Origin: an uncultured Eubacteriales bacterium
Lineage (GTDB): Bacteria > Bacillota > Clostridia > Lachnospirales > Lachnospiraceae
Direction: 5' to 3'
DNA length: 36,403 nt
Assembly (NCBI GenBank): GCA_949289145.1
Contig: CASEML010000078.1
Span: 1 to 36,403, forward strand
Shown here: positions 11,950-17,773 of the stretch, piece by piece
Position numbering within the stretch: the first letter of the stretch is position 1
Layout: each line of letters begins with the position of its first letter
Made by a program: the position numbers and the translations under genes
Notes under the pieces: model-generated
The model's input: the letters and a program-made list of their open reading frames with translations, nothing else
Database searches by the model: none
What the model was told of the DNA's origin: nothing

Positions 11950-11978
11950 TTGTAATTTTATATTGGTTATGATATAAT
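11950..11978 (+). promoter_or_regulatory. Promoter of the riboswitch-controlled operon
   Basis: TTGTAA (11950-11955) and TATAAT (11973-11978) are 17 nt apart, and TGA directly before the -10 makes it an extended -10 promoter. The riboswitch begins roughly 20-25 nt downstream. Confidence 0.8.
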
Positions 11979-12000
11979 GTCCGAAAATCGAATGGAAATA

Positions 12001-12170
12001 ATTGGTGCCTTTATTTATGTAGAGATAAAGGGTAAAAGGGAAACCGGTGAAAGTCCGGTACGAACTCGTCACTGTAAGTAAGGAGTGCAGAACTTTTGTG
12101 AAAACAGCCACTGAGAGATTGGGAAGGCAGTTCTGTATGTGGATTTACAAGTCAGGAAACCTGCCAGTTA
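12001..12170 (+). promoter_or_regulatory. Cobalamin riboswitch
   Basis: The conserved elements of the cobalamin riboswitch appear in the right order: GGTGCC at 12004, the AAAGGGAAACCGGTGAAAGTC-like core, CCGGTACGAACTCGTCACTGTA-like segment, GCCACTGAGA followed by GGGAAGGC, and the B12 box AAGTCAGGAAACCTGCC ending at 12165. Such RNAs bind adenosyl- or other cobalamins and switch off downstream genes when the cofactor is plentiful. The element is followed by terminator hairpins and then by a tetrapyrrole-chelatase/transport operon, so premature termination is the likely mechanism. The exact ends are approximate. Confidence 0.93.
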
Positions 12171-12172
12171 TT

Positions 12173-12216
12173 GGTACAGGAATATACATTCCAGACCACG
12201 AGTTCTTGGTCGTACC
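12173..12216 (+). promoter_or_regulatory. Nested three-helix element in the riboswitch expression platform
   Basis: GGTAC (12173-12177) can pair with GTACC (12212-12216), enclosing two further hairpins: GGAAT/ATTCC (12179-12192) and GACCA/TGGTC (12194-12211). A second GTACC copy at 12250-12254 offers an alternative partner for GGTAC that would disturb the two downstream terminators, so this may be the switching helix. Confidence 0.5.
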
Positions 12217-12218
12217 GT

Positions 12219-12249
12219 AGCACAGTATATTTATGCTGTAAGCTTTTTT
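12219..12249 (+). terminator. Riboswitch-controlled terminator 1
   Basis: ACAGTAT (12222-12228) pairs with ATGCTGT (12233-12239), extended by AGC/GCT across a small bulge, and is followed by six T residues (12244-12249). It lies between the cobalamin riboswitch and the start codon. Confidence 0.65.
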
Positions 12250-12251
12250 GT

Positions 12252-12280
12252 ACCACAGTACGTAGTGCTGGGGTGTTTTT
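12252..12280 (+). terminator. Riboswitch-controlled terminator 2
   Basis: CAGTAC (12256-12261) pairs with GTGCTG (12265-12270), extended by ACC/GGT across a mismatch, and is followed by five T residues (12276-12280). A second terminator directly after the first suggests tight shut-off, or that one hairpin is an alternative form. Confidence 0.55.
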
Positions 12281-12359
12281 CTGTATGTCTTTTTCGATTT
12301 CAAATACTAACACATAGTAATTGTGGAGAATTCCACACCATTGAAGGAGGGAAAGTAAC

Positions 12360-13433
12360 ATGAAAAAGAAAAACGTAACAAAATTGCTTGCAGCTTTTGC
12401 AATGTCAGCGCTTGTATTGGCGGGCTGTAGTTCTAATGGGGCTGCTGACACAAGTACTACAGAAGATAATCAGACAGTAGAAGATGGGGCAGAGGACACA
12501 GAACAGGAAGCTGATGCTCAGGAAAACAATGAAGAAGTTTCAGACGAAGAAAGTACGGAGGAGACTTCTGAAGAAGCGGAAGAAGAAAATTACAACACAG
12601 GGGATGCTTCTTTGGATAATACCAGAAATCAGGATGAAATTGGTGAAAATGAAATTTTGGTCGTAAGTTTTGGTACCAGCTATAATGACAGCAGACGTCT
12701 CACCATCGGTGCTATTGAAAATAAAATAGAATCATCATTTAACGATTATTCTGTAAGACGCGGATTTACCAGTCAAATTATCATTGACCATGTAAAGAAC
12801 AGAGATAATGTGACCATTGACAATGTGGCAGAAGCATTAGGACGAGCAGTCAATAACGGTGTTAAGAACTTAGTGATCCAACCGACTCATTTAATGAATG
12901 GGTTAGAATACAATGAGTTGGTGGAAGAAGTAGCAAATTATTCCGATGCTTTCGAAAAAGTTGCTATTGGTGAGCCATTATTAAGCAGTGATGAAGATTT
13001 TCAGGCGGTTATGAAAGCTATTACAGAAGCAACAGCAGAATATGATGATGGCGACACAGCAATTTGCTTTATGGGACATGGTACCGAAGCAGATTCCAAC
13101 AGCGTATATACAAAAATGCAGGATATGCTTACGGAAGCAGGATATGCAAATTATTATGTGGGCACGGTAGAAGCAGCTCCGTCTTTAGATGATGTACTGA
13201 CACAAGTTCAGGCTGGCGAATATAAGAAGGTGGTATTACAGCCTTTGATGATTGTGGCAGGAGATCATGCAAGCAATGACATGGCGGGAGATGAAGATGG
13301 TTCCTGGAAGAAAATATTTGAAGATGCAGGTTACGAAGTAGAATGTGTAGTACGCGGTCTAGGTGAATTAGAAGCGATTCAGGATATTTTTGTAGAGCAT
13401 ACGCAGGCAGCAGTGGATAGTCTGGCAGAATAA
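12360..13433 (+). CDS. cbiK: Membrane-anchored CbiK-like sirohydrochlorin cobaltochelatase lipoprotein
   Basis: CbiK chelatases insert Co2+ (or Fe2+) into sirohydrochlorin in anaerobic B12 synthesis and are normally cytoplasmic. This 357-aa protein begins with a lipoprotein signal (LVLAGC, Cys23), followed by a very acidic linker (about 25-95) and then a CbiK domain from about residue 97 (ENEILVVSFGTSY). Candidate metal-binding residues are His240 in FMGHGTEA, Glu271 in GTVEAAP and His303 in VAGDHASND; the spacing of about 31 and 32 residues matches the His/Glu/His triad known for CbiK. It is first after a cobalamin riboswitch and upstream of an uptake ABC transporter. Activity outside the membrane is inference; it could chelate cobalt, remove a metal from heme, or only bind a tetrapyrrole. 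Confidence 0.87.
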   Translation: MKKKNVTKLLAAFAMSALVLAGCSSNGAADTSTTEDNQTVEDGAEDTEQEADAQENNEEVSDEESTEETSEEAEEENYNTGDASLDNTRNQDEIGENEILVVSFGTSYNDSRRLTIGAIENKIESSFNDYSVRRGFTSQIIIDHVKNRDNVTIDNVAEALGRAVNNGVKNLVIQPTHLMNGLEYNELVEEVANYSDAFEKVAIGEPLLSSDEDFQAVMKAITEATAEYDDGDTAICFMGHGTEADSNSVYTKMQDMLTEAGYANYYVGTVEAAPSLDDVLTQVQAGEYKKVVLQPLMIVAGDHASNDMAGDEDGSWKKIFEDAGYEVECVVRGLGELEAIQDIFVEHTQAAVDSLAE

Positions 13434-13441
13434 TTCATGAT

Positions 13442-13472
13442 AATAGAAAACTTCTTAAAGGGATTTTCTATT
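13442..13472 (+). terminator. AT-rich hairpin between the two lipoprotein genes
   Basis: AATAGAAAA (13442-13450) pairs exactly with TTTTCTATT (13464-13472). It directly follows the chelatase stop codon and is followed by a short T-rich stretch, so it may cause partial termination or protect the 3' end of the first cistron. Confidence 0.4.
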
Positions 13473-13494
13473 GTTTCGCAAAGGAATGGGTGAA

Positions 13495-14466
13495 ATGAAA
13501 AAAACAAAAGTAATTTTATTAGTGACAGTCCTTACTATGGGACAGCTATTGGTGGGCTGCGAAGCCAGTAAAACCAATACGGCGAGTAACGGAGAAACTG
13601 TAGCGAACGTATCTGTGAATGATACAGAAACAGAGAGTGCCGCATCTGATACTGCAGAGGCGGAAGAAACCACAGAAGAAAACAGTCAGGTGGCATCTGC
13701 AGATGAGATGGCGGACGTAGCAGATGTGGTAGAAGAAGATATGACGCCTGTATATGCCACAGAATTGAAAGACGGTGTATATCCGGTAACTGTGGATTCC
13801 AGCTCATCTATGTTCAGCATCACCAGCTGCGAACTGACTGTGGAAAACGGCACCATGTCGGCGGTGATGACTATGGGGGGAACCGGTTATCTCAAGGTGT
13901 TTATGGGAACTGGAGAAGAAGCTGTAACAGCCGGAGAGGATGCCTGTATTCCATATGTGGAAAATGAAAATGGAGAACATACTTTTACCGTTCCAGTGGA
14001 AGCATTGGATATGGGAATTGATTGTTCTGCTTTCAGCAAGCGGAAAGAAAAATGGTATGACAGAGTGCTGGTTTTCCGTGCAGATTCTCTGCCTCAGGAG
14101 GCTTTTGTAAATCAGACAATGGTTACAGTGGAATCTCTTTCTTTAGAGGATGGAACTTACACAGTAGAAGTACAGTTAGAAGGTGGTTCCGGCAAAGCCA
14201 CTGTGGAATCACCGGCAACTTTTAAAGTGGAAAAGGGTCAGGCATATGCTACTATTACCTGGAGCAGTTCAAACTACGATTATATGGTGGTAGATGAAGA
14301 AAAATATGAACCAATCAATACAGAGGGAAATTCCACCTTTGAAATCCCGCTGGCAAGCTTTGACAGAAAGCTTTCTATAGCAGCTAATACTACGGCAATG
14401 AGTACACCTCATGAGATAGAATACACGTTATATTTTGATTCAAATTCAATTACAAAGGTGCCATAA
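13495..14466 (+). CDS. Two-domain surface lipoprotein, NEAT-like, putative tetrapyrrole binding
   Basis: A 323-aa lipoprotein: signal peptide with LLVGC (Cys22), acidic Thr/Glu-rich linker (about 25-85), then two beta-rich domains. Domain 1 (about 88-205) includes DGVYPV, MTMGGTGYLKVFMG and the conserved-looking CSAFSKRKEKWYDR. Domain 2 (about 218-318) includes DGTYTVEV, YATITWSSSNYDYMVV, STFEIPL and TTAMSTPHEIEYTLYF. The second domain recalls NEAT heme-binding domains in strand order, but the canonical YxxxY motif is not clear, so the fold call is tentative. ATG 13495 was chosen for AAAGGA 9 nt upstream and a normal signal peptide. The stop overlaps the next ATG by one base (TAATG), so it is coupled to the binding protein. 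Likely a ligand-capturing surface receptor. Confidence 0.68.
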   Translation: MKKTKVILLVTVLTMGQLLVGCEASKTNTASNGETVANVSVNDTETESAASDTAEAEETTEENSQVASADEMADVADVVEEDMTPVYATELKDGVYPVTVDSSSSMFSITSCELTVENGTMSAVMTMGGTGYLKVFMGTGEEAVTAGEDACIPYVENENGEHTFTVPVEALDMGIDCSAFSKRKEKWYDRVLVFRADSLPQEAFVNQTMVTVESLSLEDGTYTVEVQLEGGSGKATVESPATFKVEKGQAYATITWSSSNYDYMVVDEEKYEPINTEGNSTFEIPLASFDRKLSIAANTTAMSTPHEIEYTLYFDSNSITKVP

Positions 14467-15635
14467 TGAAAAACATAAGAGTGAAGATATTCGGAATTCT
14501 TTTAGGACTTTGTACAATCCTCTTCTGTGCATGCAGTGTGCAGGAGGGGGGAGAAGAAGCAGGAGATCCCAAAACGCAGGCAGAACAATTAGAATGGAAA
14601 CAAATGGATATAGAGTACAGTATGGAGCTGCAATATGCGGATCAATTTACGGTGGATTATTATAAAGACGGTTATGCATTGATTACAATCAAGGATGGCG
14701 GTCGCTTTTTTGTTGTACCGGAAAATGCGGTGGTTCCTTCTGAATTGGAGGGAGATATTGTGGTTTTACAGCAGCCTTTAGACAATATCTATCTGGTGGC
14801 AACTTCTGCCATGGATTTGTTCCGGGCAATAGATGGACTTGACTGTATTCGATTATCGGGAACTGATAGCAAAGGCTGGTATATTGAAGAGGCAAAACAG
14901 GCAATGGAAGAAGGAATAATTCTGTATGCAGGAAAATACAGCGCACCCGATTATGAACTGATTTTAGCGGAAGGGTGCGATTTGGCAGTGGAATCCACCA
15001 TGATCTATCATACACCGGAAGTGAAGGAACAGTTAGAAAGCTTTGGTATACCGGTGCTGGTGGAACGTTCCAGCTATGAAAGCAATCCGCTAGGCAGAAT
15101 GGAGTGGCTGAAATTATACGGTGTGCTTTTGGGAAAAGAACAAGAGGCGGAACAATATTTTCAGCAACAGATAGAACAGTTGAAGGGAATGGAGAAAAAA
15201 AATACAGGAAAAACAGTTGCATTCTTTTACATTAATTCCAACGGTTCTGTCAATGTGAGAAAGCCCGGTGATTATGTGGCAAAAATGATTGAAATGGCGG
15301 GTGGGAATTATGTGCCATCCAATGTGGCGCAAGAGAATGCGCTGTCTACCATGAATATGCAGATGGAATCATTTTACGCAGAAGCAAAAGATGCAGATTA
15401 TCTGATTTACAACAGCACCATTGACGGGGAAATCAAGACGATAGATGAACTGTTGGAAAAAAGCAATCTTTTAAAAGATTTTAAGGCAGTAAATGAAGGA
15501 AATGTGTGGTGTGTTCAAAAGAATATGTTTCAACAAACAACGGGAATTGGTGATATGATTGCTGATATTCATAAAATTATAACTGGAGAGACGGCAGAAG
15601 GAGAAGAACTAAAATTCGTGAGAAAGGTAAAGTAA
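14466..15635 (+). CDS. ABC transporter substrate-binding lipoprotein (FecB/BtuF type)
   Basis: The 389-aa protein has a lipoprotein signal peptide (lipobox ending at Cys23 in LFCAC) and a class III periplasmic-binding-protein body. Typical features are two lobes around a long central helix (KEQEAEQYFQQQIEQLKGM), a middle 'GCDLAVESTMIY' strand with the following PEVKEQLESFGIPVLVE, and a C-terminal GNVWCVQ strand. Such proteins deliver siderophores, heme or cobalamin to FecCD permeases. The gene overlaps its upstream neighbour by one base and the permease starts 4 nt after it. Regulation by cobalamin makes a corrinoid, a corrinoid precursor or a tetrapyrrole the likeliest ligand, but the sequence does not identify it. 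Confidence 0.85.
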   Translation: MKNIRVKIFGILLGLCTILFCACSVQEGGEEAGDPKTQAEQLEWKQMDIEYSMELQYADQFTVDYYKDGYALITIKDGGRFFVVPENAVVPSELEGDIVVLQQPLDNIYLVATSAMDLFRAIDGLDCIRLSGTDSKGWYIEEAKQAMEEGIILYAGKYSAPDYELILAEGCDLAVESTMIYHTPEVKEQLESFGIPVLVERSSYESNPLGRMEWLKLYGVLLGKEQEAEQYFQQQIEQLKGMEKKNTGKTVAFFYINSNGSVNVRKPGDYVAKMIEMAGGNYVPSNVAQENALSTMNMQMESFYAEAKDADYLIYNSTIDGEIKTIDELLEKSNLLKDFKAVNEGNVWCVQKNMFQQTTGIGDMIADIHKIITGETAEGEELKFVRKVK

Positions 15636-15639
15636 AGGC

Positions 15640-16668
15640 ATGGAAGTGAGGAAAAATCATACAGCAAACATTCGCTATGGAATAGCTTTCCTTATATTGA
15701 TTGCACTTTTAGGAATATTGTTTGTATGGAATGTAAATTCCGGCAGTGTAGACTTAACTATAAAAGAAATCTATAAAATTCTGATTCACAAAAAAGGAGA
15801 AGAAACTTCCTTTCATATTGTATGGGATATAAGAATGCCGAGAATTTTGGCTGCTATTATTTTAGGCGGTGCTTTGTCCGTATCCGGCTTTTTGTTACAG
15901 ACATTCTTTGGAAATCCTATTGCAGGCCCTTTTGTGCTGGGAATTTCTTCGGGAGCAAAGTTGATGGTGTCCATTGTAATTGTAGTTTTATTGGAAAAAA
16001 GGATACTTGTAAATTCATTCCTTATGATCACTGCTGCTTTTGCAGGGGCCATGATATCTATGGGATTTGTTCTGGCAGTGTCAAAAAAGGTAGAAAAAAT
16101 GTCCATGTTGGTAATCTGTGGTGTTATGATTGGATATATTTGCTCTGCAATTACGGAATTTATTGTGACTTTTGCAGACGATTCAAATATTGTAAATCTG
16201 CATAATTGGTCTATGGGAAGTTTTTCTGGTATGAACTGGGATAAGATTTTGGTAATGGCGGTGGTGATTTTTTTCGTAATGGTCACAACTTTTTGCATGT
16301 CAAAGCCCATCAGTGCATACCAGATGGGGGAAGCCTATGCAAAAAATGTGGGAGTGAATGTGAGTTTGTTACGGATAATGCTAATTCTTCTGTCCAGTAT
16401 ATTAGCGGCTTGTGTCACCGCTTTTGCAGGTCCTATTTCTTTTGTGGGAATTGCAGTTCCCCATTTGGTCAAGAGCCTGTTTAAAACAGCGAAACCTATT
16501 CTGGTGATTCCGGGCTGCTTTTTGGGCGGAGCCGTGTTCTGTCTGTTTTGTGACCTGATAGCCAGAACCTTGTTTGCACCTACAGAACTTAGTATTAGTT
16601 CTGTAACGGCTGTATTTGGAGCGCCGATTGTGATTTATGTAATGATTCGGAGACAGACGAAAGTATAA
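15640..16668 (+). CDS. FecCD-family ABC transporter permease
   Basis: The 342-aa protein is a polytopic membrane protein of the BtuC/FecCD/FhuB family, which takes up large iron or cobalt complexes. Family landmarks include WDIRMPRILAAIILGGALSVSG near residue 65, the NPIAGPFVLGISSGA segment near 92, GEAYAKNVGVNV near 232 (the region that contacts the ATPase), and AFAGPISFVGIAVPHLVK near 264. Length and predicted helices fit a single subunit that works as a homodimer. It lies between the binding protein and the ATPase genes in one operon. Confidence 0.92.
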   Translation: MEVRKNHTANIRYGIAFLILIALLGILFVWNVNSGSVDLTIKEIYKILIHKKGEETSFHIVWDIRMPRILAAIILGGALSVSGFLLQTFFGNPIAGPFVLGISSGAKLMVSIVIVVLLEKRILVNSFLMITAAFAGAMISMGFVLAVSKKVEKMSMLVICGVMIGYICSAITEFIVTFADDSNIVNLHNWSMGSFSGMNWDKILVMAVVIFFVMVTTFCMSKPISAYQMGEAYAKNVGVNVSLLRIMLILLSSILAACVTAFAGPISFVGIAVPHLVKSLFKTAKPILVIPGCFLGGAVFCLFCDLIARTLFAPTELSISSVTAVFGAPIVIYVMIRRQTKV

Positions 16669-16678
16669 GGGAGGAAAC

Positions 16679-17773
16679 ATGAAAGAGTATTTTCTTTATA
16701 CAGACCATATGACAGTGGGATATCAGGGCAGACCATTGATCAGCGATATAGAATTAAAAGTGAAAAAGGGAGAGATTTTGACCTTAATTGGCCCAAATGG
16801 TGCAGGAAAATCTACTATATTAAAAAGTCTTACCAGACAGATGAATCTTTTAGGAGGAACGGTGTATATTGAACAGCGGCCCATGAATAAGATGACAGAT
16901 AAGGAAGTGGCAAGAAAACAGTCTATGGTTATGACAGAGCGGATACGACCGGAATTGATGACTTGTGAAGATGTGGTAAGTATGGGAAGATATCCTTACA
17001 CTGGCAGTCTTGGCATTTTAAGTAAAGAGGATAAAGATAAGGTAAAGGAGGCCTTGGAGCTGGTACATGCTACAGACCTTGCAGGTCAGGACTTTTTGAA
17101 AATCAGTGACGGACAGCGGCAAAGGATTCTTCTTGCCAGAGCAATCTGCCAAGAACCGGAGCTGATCGTGTTAGACGAGCCTACCTCTTTTCTTGATATT
17201 CGTCATAAACTGGAATTGCTGGCAATTTTAAAAAAAATGGTAAGGGAAAAACAGATTGCAGTGCTTATGTCATTACACGAACTGGAACTGGCGCAAAAAA
17301 TATCAGATTTTGTGGTCTGTGTACAGGGCAATACCATTGCAAACTATGGTACTCCGGAAGAAATCTTTCAATCTTCTTATATCAAGGAACTTTATGGTAT
17401 CACTAAGGGGACTTATAATACAGAATTTGGAACTGTGGAAATGGCAGCAGTAGAGGGAACGCCAGAAATTTTTGTGATCGGTGGAAATGGCAGTGGAATT
17501 ACTATATATCGTAAGCTGCAAAGAGAGGGAGTCCCCTTTGCAACCGGAGTGCTTCATGCTAACGATGTAGATTATTTTTTAGCAAAAGAGCTGTCAAATT
17601 GCGTTATAGTAGAAAAGGCCTTTGAAGCAATAAGAACTGAAAATTATGAGAAAGCATTAAAACAGATGAATCAGTGTAAAAAAGTATATTGTAATCTGCA
17701 AGAATTTGGTTTTTTGAATCATAAAAATCAAAAATTGTTGGAAATTGCAAAGCGGGAAGGGAAATTATTATAA
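16679..17773 (+). CDS. ABC transporter ATP-binding protein with unusual C-terminal extension
   Basis: The first ~240 residues are a FecE/BtuD-type ATPase: Walker A GPNGAGKST near 38-46, Q-loop region (RKQSMVMTE), Walker B LIVLDEPTS, D-loop FLD and switch His in SLHELELA. The signature reads ISDGQRQR where the usual form is LSGGQ, a conservative departure seen in some FecE-like proteins. Residues from about 255 to 364 form an extra domain not needed for a standard ATPase. It starts with a glycine-rich, Rossmann-like EIFVIGGNGSG and continues with alternating strands and helices. It may bind a nucleotide or a corrinoid, but this is speculation. It is the last gene of the operon; no terminator is visible before the rpsB promoter 5 nt further on. 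Confidence 0.88.
   Translation: MKEYFLYTDHMTVGYQGRPLISDIELKVKKGEILTLIGPNGAGKSTILKSLTRQMNLLGGTVYIEQRPMNKMTDKEVARKQSMVMTERIRPELMTCEDVVSMGRYPYTGSLGILSKEDKDKVKEALELVHATDLAGQDFLKISDGQRQRILLARAICQEPELIVLDEPTSFLDIRHKLELLAILKKMVREKQIAVLMSLHELELAQKISDFVVCVQGNTIANYGTPEEIFQSSYIKELYGITKGTYNTEFGTVEMAAVEGTPEIFVIGGNGSGITIYRKLQREGVPFATGVLHANDVDYFLAKELSNCVIVEKAFEAIRTENYEKALKQMNQCKKVYCNLQEFGFLNHKNQKLLEIAKREGKLL

Follow-up and report, generated by a model that had tools for sequence, protein, structure and literature searches.

A cobalamin riboswitch-led operon for an exported CbiK-type chelatase, a NEAT-domain receptor and a BtuFCD-type importer in Clostridia

The operon and its products

The DNA analysed here (the window) is a 36,403 nt stretch from an uncultured member of the Lachnospiraceae (G000, contig C78; genome estimated 88% complete), and the subject is a cobalamin riboswitch followed by five open reading frames on the same strand (Table 1). 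These encode, in order, a CbiK-type chelatase lipoprotein (CbiK), a lipoprotein with two NEAT domains (NEATL), and the substrate-binding lipoprotein, permease and ATPase of a BtuF/BtuC/BtuD-type importer. A preliminary description of the region, made from the letters alone, had proposed a cobalamin riboswitch, a CbiK-like lipoprotein, a two-domain NEAT-like lipoprotein and a FecB/FecCD-type importer with its ATPase, and all of these parts were recovered in the current study, the importer as Btu/Fec-type. The aptamer is full-length and is the only cobalamin riboswitch found in the genome.

Table 1. Features of the CbiK-NEATL-BtuFCD operon and its upstream DNA (positions in the window)
Feature	Position (nt)	Strand	Basis
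Promoter-like site, TTGTAA-17-TATAAT, with TG ahead of the second hexamer	11950..11978	+	Consensus scan only
Cobalamin riboswitch aptamer	11986..12182	+	RF00174 covariance model, 103.7 bits (gathering 31.5), model positions 1-189/189
Two candidate hairpins, each then a U-run; possible expression platform	12219..12278	+	Fold
Exported CbiK-type cobaltochelatase lipoprotein (predicted), 357 aa	12360..13433	+	PF06180, 2e-86
Two-NEAT-domain lipoprotein receptor (predicted), 331 aa from TTG; ATG at 13495 is the likelier start	13471..14466	+	PF05031, AF2, structure searches
N-terminal NEAT domain, ~residues 100-211	13768..14103	+	
C-terminal NEAT domain, residues 223-328	14137..14454	+	
BtuF/FecB-type substrate-binding lipoprotein, 389 aa	14466..15635	+	PF01497, 8.7e-27
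BtuC/FecCD-type permease, 342 aa	15640..16668	+	PF01032, 1.4e-84
BtuD-type ATPase, 364 aa, with C-terminal extension	16679..17773	+	PF00005, 1.7e-29

The window CbiK consists of a lipoprotein signal, an acidic linker and a chelatase domain that begins at about residue 98. It passes the Pfam CbiK domain with 290 bits (cut-off 26.2) and scores 248.6 bits with the NCBIfam model SiroCoChCbiK (cut-off 400), as expected of a relative rather than an equivalog. Its matches in the Protein Data Bank (PDB) are CbiK (1qgo, 7e-45), FetB (9b86, 2e-42) and a further chelatase (2xvx, 3.5e-36). The last we take to be a periplasmic Desulfovibrio chelatase that binds heme, and FetB is presumably the same protein as IhtB of Porphyromonas gingivalis. 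Both catalytic histidines, named as His 145 and His 207 for the Salmonella CbiK (PMC7689651), are retained.

NEATL narrowly misses the cut-off of PF05031 (1.3e-7; 32.5 vs 32.8 bits), with a match confined to the C-terminal domain. The AF2 model has a pLDDT of 85.4 (92.6 for the N-terminal domain alone), and structure searches with the predicted models assigned the NEAT fold to both domains, the closest structures being NEAT domains solved with heme. The positions of the YxxxY motif fall at about K192/Y196 and T312/I316, as extrapolated from alignment end-ranges, with the conserved residues H314 and Y318 nearby. A profile of the NEATL alignment gave no match to PDB sequences up to E 10, and the best phmmer hit of the protein itself was 'ancillary protein 1' (E 0.043).

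For the BtuF-type lipoprotein, phmmer detected no relative among PDB sequences at 1e-3. The best NCBIfam model of the permease is the vitamin B12 permease BtuC (221.7 bits, below the cut-off of 334), and its nearest PDB chains are the hemin permease HmuU (1.2e-50), then FhuB, then BtuC (1.2e-45). FecE is the top NCBIfam model of the ATPase, slightly above the corrinoid ATPase model NF007082 (residues 10-335), both being below cut-off. Since the permease is nearer to HmuU than to BtuC by PDB sequence, the transporter alone leaves the substrate unsettled. At its C-terminus the ATPase is extended by ~120 aa, a part of which NF007082 covers; BtuD homologues are shorter in some relatives (e.g. 248-267 aa).

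Recurrence of the unit and its tie to cobalamin synthesis

In a family set of 299 genomes, CbiK was found in 171 and NEATL in 133. From the CbiK matches listed with coordinates, a first round of 80 regions was taken before any search for HemC, mostly by descending score (the last 20 were chosen partly for long open frames); 35 of these carry an exported CbiK and 45 a cytosolic CbiK only. At 29 of the 35 loci, BtuF and BtuC lie downstream of the exported CbiK, and no match to the window BtuF was present at any of the 45 cytosolic loci. In another collection, the NEATL alignment retrieved 296 relatives, of which the best 80 were kept; the named relatives from a protein search belong to the Lachnospiraceae, the Oscillospiraceae and other Clostridia. 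With any loci cut at contig or flank ends included in the counts, 59 of the best 80 show CbiK-NEATL-BtuF-BtuC-BtuD in this order, 14 more have CbiK and NEATL with fewer of the others (one of the 14 is without only a recognised BtuF), six have no CbiK on the locus, and one has no BtuD and an extra ATPase upstream. The preliminary description had made its reading depend on these genes keeping company elsewhere, and they were found together commonly rather than rarely.

It had also asked whether the riboswitch goes with them. RF00174 was searched in 37 genomes with 50 candidates scored per genome, the riboswitch counts being lower bounds. Leaving aside G003, where the NEATL contig has no CbiK, and G066, where the contig ends, 34 of the 35 assessable genomes, by coordinates compared by hand, have a riboswitch no more than ~1 kb ahead of the exported CbiK (G053 is the sole exception), and 20 of these 34 yielded no further cobalamin riboswitch. 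All 11 loci tested in the other collection have RF00174 upstream of CbiK, and, where 600 or more bases of upstream DNA were available, the 3' motif of the riboswitch stands ahead of the genes at 67 of 68 loci, compared with 12 of 1360 control windows, each 900 bases long. The five genes are a real, widespread and recurring unit; a chance cluster was rejected on the recurrence of the gene order and on the upstream riboswitch and motif counts.

The export of CbiK is consistent too. An export signal was recognised in 66 of the 68 rows of the clade to which the window CbiK belongs (L201 is ambiguous, and L160 is truncated where its contig ends), as well as in 73 of the 74 CbiKs among the best 80 NEATL loci, L235 being cut; by pattern, 60 of the 74 have a lipobox, 13 a signal-like N-terminus, and one starts at the contig end. 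In a quick gene tree built from 115 CbiK rows, in which many forks are weak, the exported form appears as a single change; both catalytic histidines are present in 142/142 rows counted as exported and 47/47 cytosolic rows. For the tree and residue counts, ten fusions of CbiK to an ABC ATPase and L055, called "SP" by script, were reclassed by hand, and L201 and L160, called "CYT" by script, were entered as exported (L201 was left ambiguous in the HemC count). On the strength of the consistent export signals and the single change on the tree, the possibility of a misplaced biosynthetic CbiK was rejected. Among the cytosolic CbiKs, an ABC ATPase (CbiO-like) stands in frame ahead of the chelatase at L040, L042, L051, L054, L058, L060, L063, L065, L080 and L081; the ten fusions were read from the N-terminal motif, and Pfam confirmed both of those tested (L042, L058). 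At L066 (G102) two exported CbiK lipoproteins lie in tandem (12808-14088 and 14745-16412), each with one cobalamin riboswitch, and a cytosolic CbiK is encoded in the same region.

The preliminary description had set the chelatase apart from B12 synthesis, as no cbi or cob gene is nearby, and on this point it did not hold. The corrin genes of the window genome are on other contigs, and the window lipoprotein is the only match to CbiK, and the only match to the CbiX model, in that genome. Matches to CbiL, CbiF, CbiH, CbiE/T, CbiA, CobU, CobS, CbiB and CbiP were found there (CobU and CobS below cut-offs), together with CbiC, CbiG, CbiJ, CobT and a CysG N-domain; CbiD was not located in this genome. 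In seven relatives (G034, G066, G043, G297, G156, G177, G174) the same five genes, some of them fused, lead a cobalamin operon and continue, without a change of strand, into most of CbiP, CbiC, CbiD, CbiF, CbiG, CbiH, CbiJ, CbiE/T, CbiA, CobT/U/S and CbiB, and many second-round loci likewise continue into cbi/cob genes. The order is BtuD-CbiD-CbiL-CbiF in Evtepia gabavorous and BtuD-CbiL in [Clostridium] clostridioforme. In several genomes CbiK is fused to NEATL, or NEATL to BtuF, as against the fusion of CbiK to an ABC ATPase among cytosolic CbiKs. Judged by this gene context, the CbiK-NEATL-BtuFCD operon belongs to cobalamin synthesis. Control by a B12 riboswitch, the exported chelatase, the NEAT-type receptor (both domains), the Btu/Fec-type importer and the unity of the five genes are supported; the separation of the chelatase from B12 synthesis is not.

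At L185 (G094) and L188 (G224), both in genomes without HemC, NEATL-BtuF-BtuC-BtuD heads cob/cbi genes with no adjacent CbiK, and a genome-wide search of G094 gave no CbiK match. CbiM (>150 bits) is present in 9 of 37 genomes with exported CbiK vs 14 of 20 with the cytosolic form (p 0.0015), a difference that would fit cobalt being carried in within the ring, CbiM being the one cobalt importer searched for. Seven of the nine matches are long frames of 341-387 aa; these are presumably nickel types, a point given no weight here.

Association with the loss of early tetrapyrrole synthesis

CbiC is present in 171 of the 299 genomes and HemC (porphobilinogen deaminase) in 130. About a third of the CbiC-bearing genomes (56/171) are without HemC, yet keep corrin-ring genes (among the 171, the CbiC calls of G016 and G052 are weak or fragmentary, and the match behind the HemC call of G008 is also weak, at 28.4 bits), and these genomes are apparently unable to make uroporphyrinogen III. 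NEATL (at least 80 bits) was found in 45 of these 56 and in 50 of the 115 CbiC-bearing genomes that have HemC (odds ratio 5.3, p 4e-6 in a Fisher test, which, here as below, ignores kinship). CbiK is present in 49 of the 56. Among the 45 CbiKs that were inspected (G062, G170, G186 and G224 are left out, and 16 of the 45 loci had been reached by way of NEATL, which tilts the count toward the system), 43 are exported, one is ambiguous (G267) and one is cytosolic (G149). Nearly all examined genomes with the corrin pathway and CbiK and without HemC carry the exported system.

The first-round regions gave the same picture. With the window genome counted in, 14 of 35 genomes with exported CbiK are without HemC, as against none of 41 CbiC-bearing genomes with the cytosolic form (p 3e-6), some of the latter having further CbiK matches outside the regions inspected and two of them, G166 and G205, having weak or fragmentary CbiC matches. 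Of the 57 genomes searched together, the 20 cytosolic ones all have HemC, and 15 of the 37 carriers do not. CobA (at least 185 bits) is absent from 14 of the 15 genomes without HemC that were searched. G232, a single contig listed as 100% complete, has no HemC or CobA and does have CbiC, an exported CbiK and CbiL (162 bits, just below the curated cut-off). On the CbiK tree the HemC state changes at least nine times among the exported rows, and the starred branches force at least five changes for the exported group without HemC. The link to HemC loss is a new fact, beyond what the sequence of the window could show, and since the corrin enzymes are kept where HemC and CobA are gone, such genomes would need an imported ring.

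Proposed role, alternatives and related systems

The capture of a precursor and its loading with cobalt outside the cell is the best-supported reading of these data. A receptor fold, a chelatase with intact catalytic histidines and an importer, placed at the head of a corrin operon, are most simply accounted for if cobalt is inserted externally and the cobalt complex imported. The NEAT protein would pick up a metal-free isobacteriochlorin released by neighbours, namely sirohydrochlorin or, where CbiL is missing, its C20-methylated form (factor III); the exported CbiK would insert cobalt at the surface; the complex would then be carried in by the binding lipoprotein and the ABC transporter for CbiL/CbiH and the later pathway; and plentiful cobamide would shut the system off through the riboswitch. 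Where CbiL is missing, the ring may be imported at the factor III stage, or CbiL may be replaced by an unrecognised protein. For species that make the precursor themselves, including that of the window, the system could be a supplementary supply, or their sole means of inserting cobalt by a CbiK-type enzyme; where the early pathway is complete, a CysG-like protein may insert cobalt in the cytosol. That the operon is a B12-repressed surface system supplying a cobalt-containing tetrapyrrole for the corrin ring has, in our estimate, about an even chance of being correct. More tentative, and in our judgement somewhat more apt to be wrong than right, is the full proposal that the making of the B12 ring is divided between the two sides of the membrane, metal-free isobacteriochlorins being harvested from neighbours, loaded with cobalt on the outer face and imported as the cobalt complex; the NEAT receptor would no longer use a metal ligand, the operon would be the missing uptake route of precursor salvagers, and IhtB/FetB of P. 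gingivalis would be reread as following the same strategy.

Several observations weigh against the preferred reading, in addition to the kinship and sampling effects given with the counts above. The window genome has HemA, HemL, HemB, HemC and CobA-HemD; the window species has kept its early tetrapyrrole genes and is not a precursor salvager by gene loss, although carriers elsewhere do show that pattern, as judged by HemC and CobA. The 50 genomes with NEATL among the 115 that have both CbiC and HemC indicate that the system is not only for auxotrophs. CbiL (at least 160 bits) is missing in 8 of the 15 searched genomes without HemC, and in G003 and G053, which have HemC, so that cobalt-sirohydrochlorin alone would not serve those genomes. 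Seven of the 56 CbiC-bearing genomes without HemC have no CbiK match, and four of the seven keep NEATL beside BtuF and/or BtuD (L184-L187), which implies that an external CbiK is not always needed; G149 lacks HemC, yet its CbiK is cytosolic. A riboswitch also accompanies the cytosolic CbiK of G136, cytosolic-only genomes not having been searched for riboswitches. The importer has sequence ties to hemin and iron transporters (HmuU, FecE), and operons in which a giant NEATL protein precedes BtuFCD, with no CbiK, would suit a plain corrinoid or tetrapyrrole receptor.

Two of these points have further detail. The genomes that keep CbiC and show no TIGR01467 match near cut-off for CbiL are G174, G135, G066, G079, G156, G292, G043 and G297, as well as G003 and G053. 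The giant surface proteins, with several NEATL domains and followed by BtuF-BtuC-BtuD, are encoded at L207:6286-9261 (991 aa), L208:4826-10264 on the minus strand (1812 aa) and L186:7050-10286 (1078 aa), with no CbiK beside them; those of G291 (L207) and G102 (L208) have a cobalamin riboswitch of their own directly upstream.

The same CbiK-less NEATL-BtuFCD operons behind their own riboswitches, the cobalamin riboswitch control of the whole unit, and BtuC as the closest NCBIfam model of the permease could also be explained by corrinoid scavenging, in which CbiK and the NEAT protein bind finished corrinoids (cobamides, cobinamide) for import by BtuFCD, and the chelatase fold is a corrin-gripping scaffold with no external metal insertion. 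We regard this as unlikely, with perhaps a one-in-four standing, as a mere scaffold does not account for catalytic residues that are intact in every row counted as exported, and the corrin-ring genes that share an operon with the system in genomes without HemC and CobA need a pre-corrin substrate, which corrinoid import does not supply. An ordinary B12 uptake operon was rejected, failing both on the exported chelatase with its intact active site and on the link to HemC.

A further alternative, which appears improbable, is that the exported CbiK works in reverse and removes iron from heme or siroheme, the metal-free ring or the iron then being imported, as proposed for IhtB. Heme is suggested by the NEAT domains of known structure closest to NEATL, by FetB, named a heme-binding protein, as the second-best PDB match of CbiK, and by the hemin permease as the nearest solved chain of the window permease, but the cobalamin riboswitch and the cobalamin synthesis context do not fit, and the tyrosine positions that bind iron in NEAT domains seem to be K192 and T312 (extrapolated). 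Protoporphyrin has no entry into the corrin pathway; the stripping of siroheme, on the other hand, could yield sirohydrochlorin. The precedent is IhtB, for which the removal of iron from heme has been suggested (PMC10913741). Very unlikely is a system that sequesters Co(II) with the tetrapyrrole as mere carrier, in place of CbiMNQO-type import: it would agree with the CbiM counts and with cbiK-bearing delta-proteobacteria without known cobalt transporters, for which a new one, cbtX, was predicted (Rodionov 2004, PMC545781), but long CbiM frames occur in some cytosolic genomes too, the search for cobalt importers covered CbiM only, and the HemC link is left unexplained.

Capture of a tetrapyrrole at the surface, as preferred here, has counterparts in known systems. 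In the Isd scheme of Gram-positives, surface NEAT domains pass a tetrapyrrole to an ABC importer; the window system shares the NEAT fold and the importer and, unlike Isd, has a riboswitch, a chelatase in the operon and a probable loss of the tyrosine iron ligands. To BtuFCD corrinoid importers the likeness lies in the permease (BtuC) and the ATPase (corrinoid ATPase model), although all scores are below equivalog cut-offs and the genes are coupled to an exported chelatase and a NEAT receptor. The Iht system of the Gram-negative P. gingivalis (IhtA-E) combines, like the window, a CbiK-like lipoprotein with a binding protein, a permease and an ATPase; its proposed role is in iron or heme, and no NEAT protein is among the parts given in that account (PMC10913741). 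Its TonB receptor, IhtA, has no equivalent among the five genes of the window, where the NEAT protein takes its place. A review credits FetB with the production of MnPPIX (PMC13402209), and the pathway up to precorrin-2 is absent from P. gingivalis (PMC6461909). Desulfovibrio has cbiK-cbiL and btuCDF under the control of a single B12 element, a grouping like that of riboswitch, CbiK and Btu genes in the window, with no mention of a NEAT protein in the relevant section (PMC545781).

The HemC-deficient carriers also match the tetrapyrrole precursor salvagers of Shelton et al., mostly Firmicutes, which keep the corrin pathway and have lost its early steps (PMC6461909). In that study three species were tested with 5-aminolevulinic acid (ALA), little further work on salvagers is reported, and the sections on them name no uptake system for late precursors (PMC6461909); the CbiK-NEATL-BtuFCD operon is a concrete candidate, and could explain how such species still assemble B12. 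At the level of titles and abstracts, with subscription literature mostly outside coverage, no account of this operon, no paper joining CbiK to a NEAT domain, and no pairing of NEAT domain with cobalamin was found. Many gut bacteria carry the B12-controlled surface set of chelatase, NEAT receptor and importer. Were the preferred reading true, tetrapyrroles one step short of cobalt insertion would be traded between gut organisms, B12 predictions from genomes would have to be revised where they treat the exported CbiK like any other chelatase, and NEAT domains would gain a role beyond the capture of heme iron.

In the DNA ahead of the window CbiK, the count of promoter-like sites in a consensus scan is not above that in shuffled sequences, and the fold of the two candidate hairpins is no stronger than in shuffles; a terminator-like match lies at 12256-12270.

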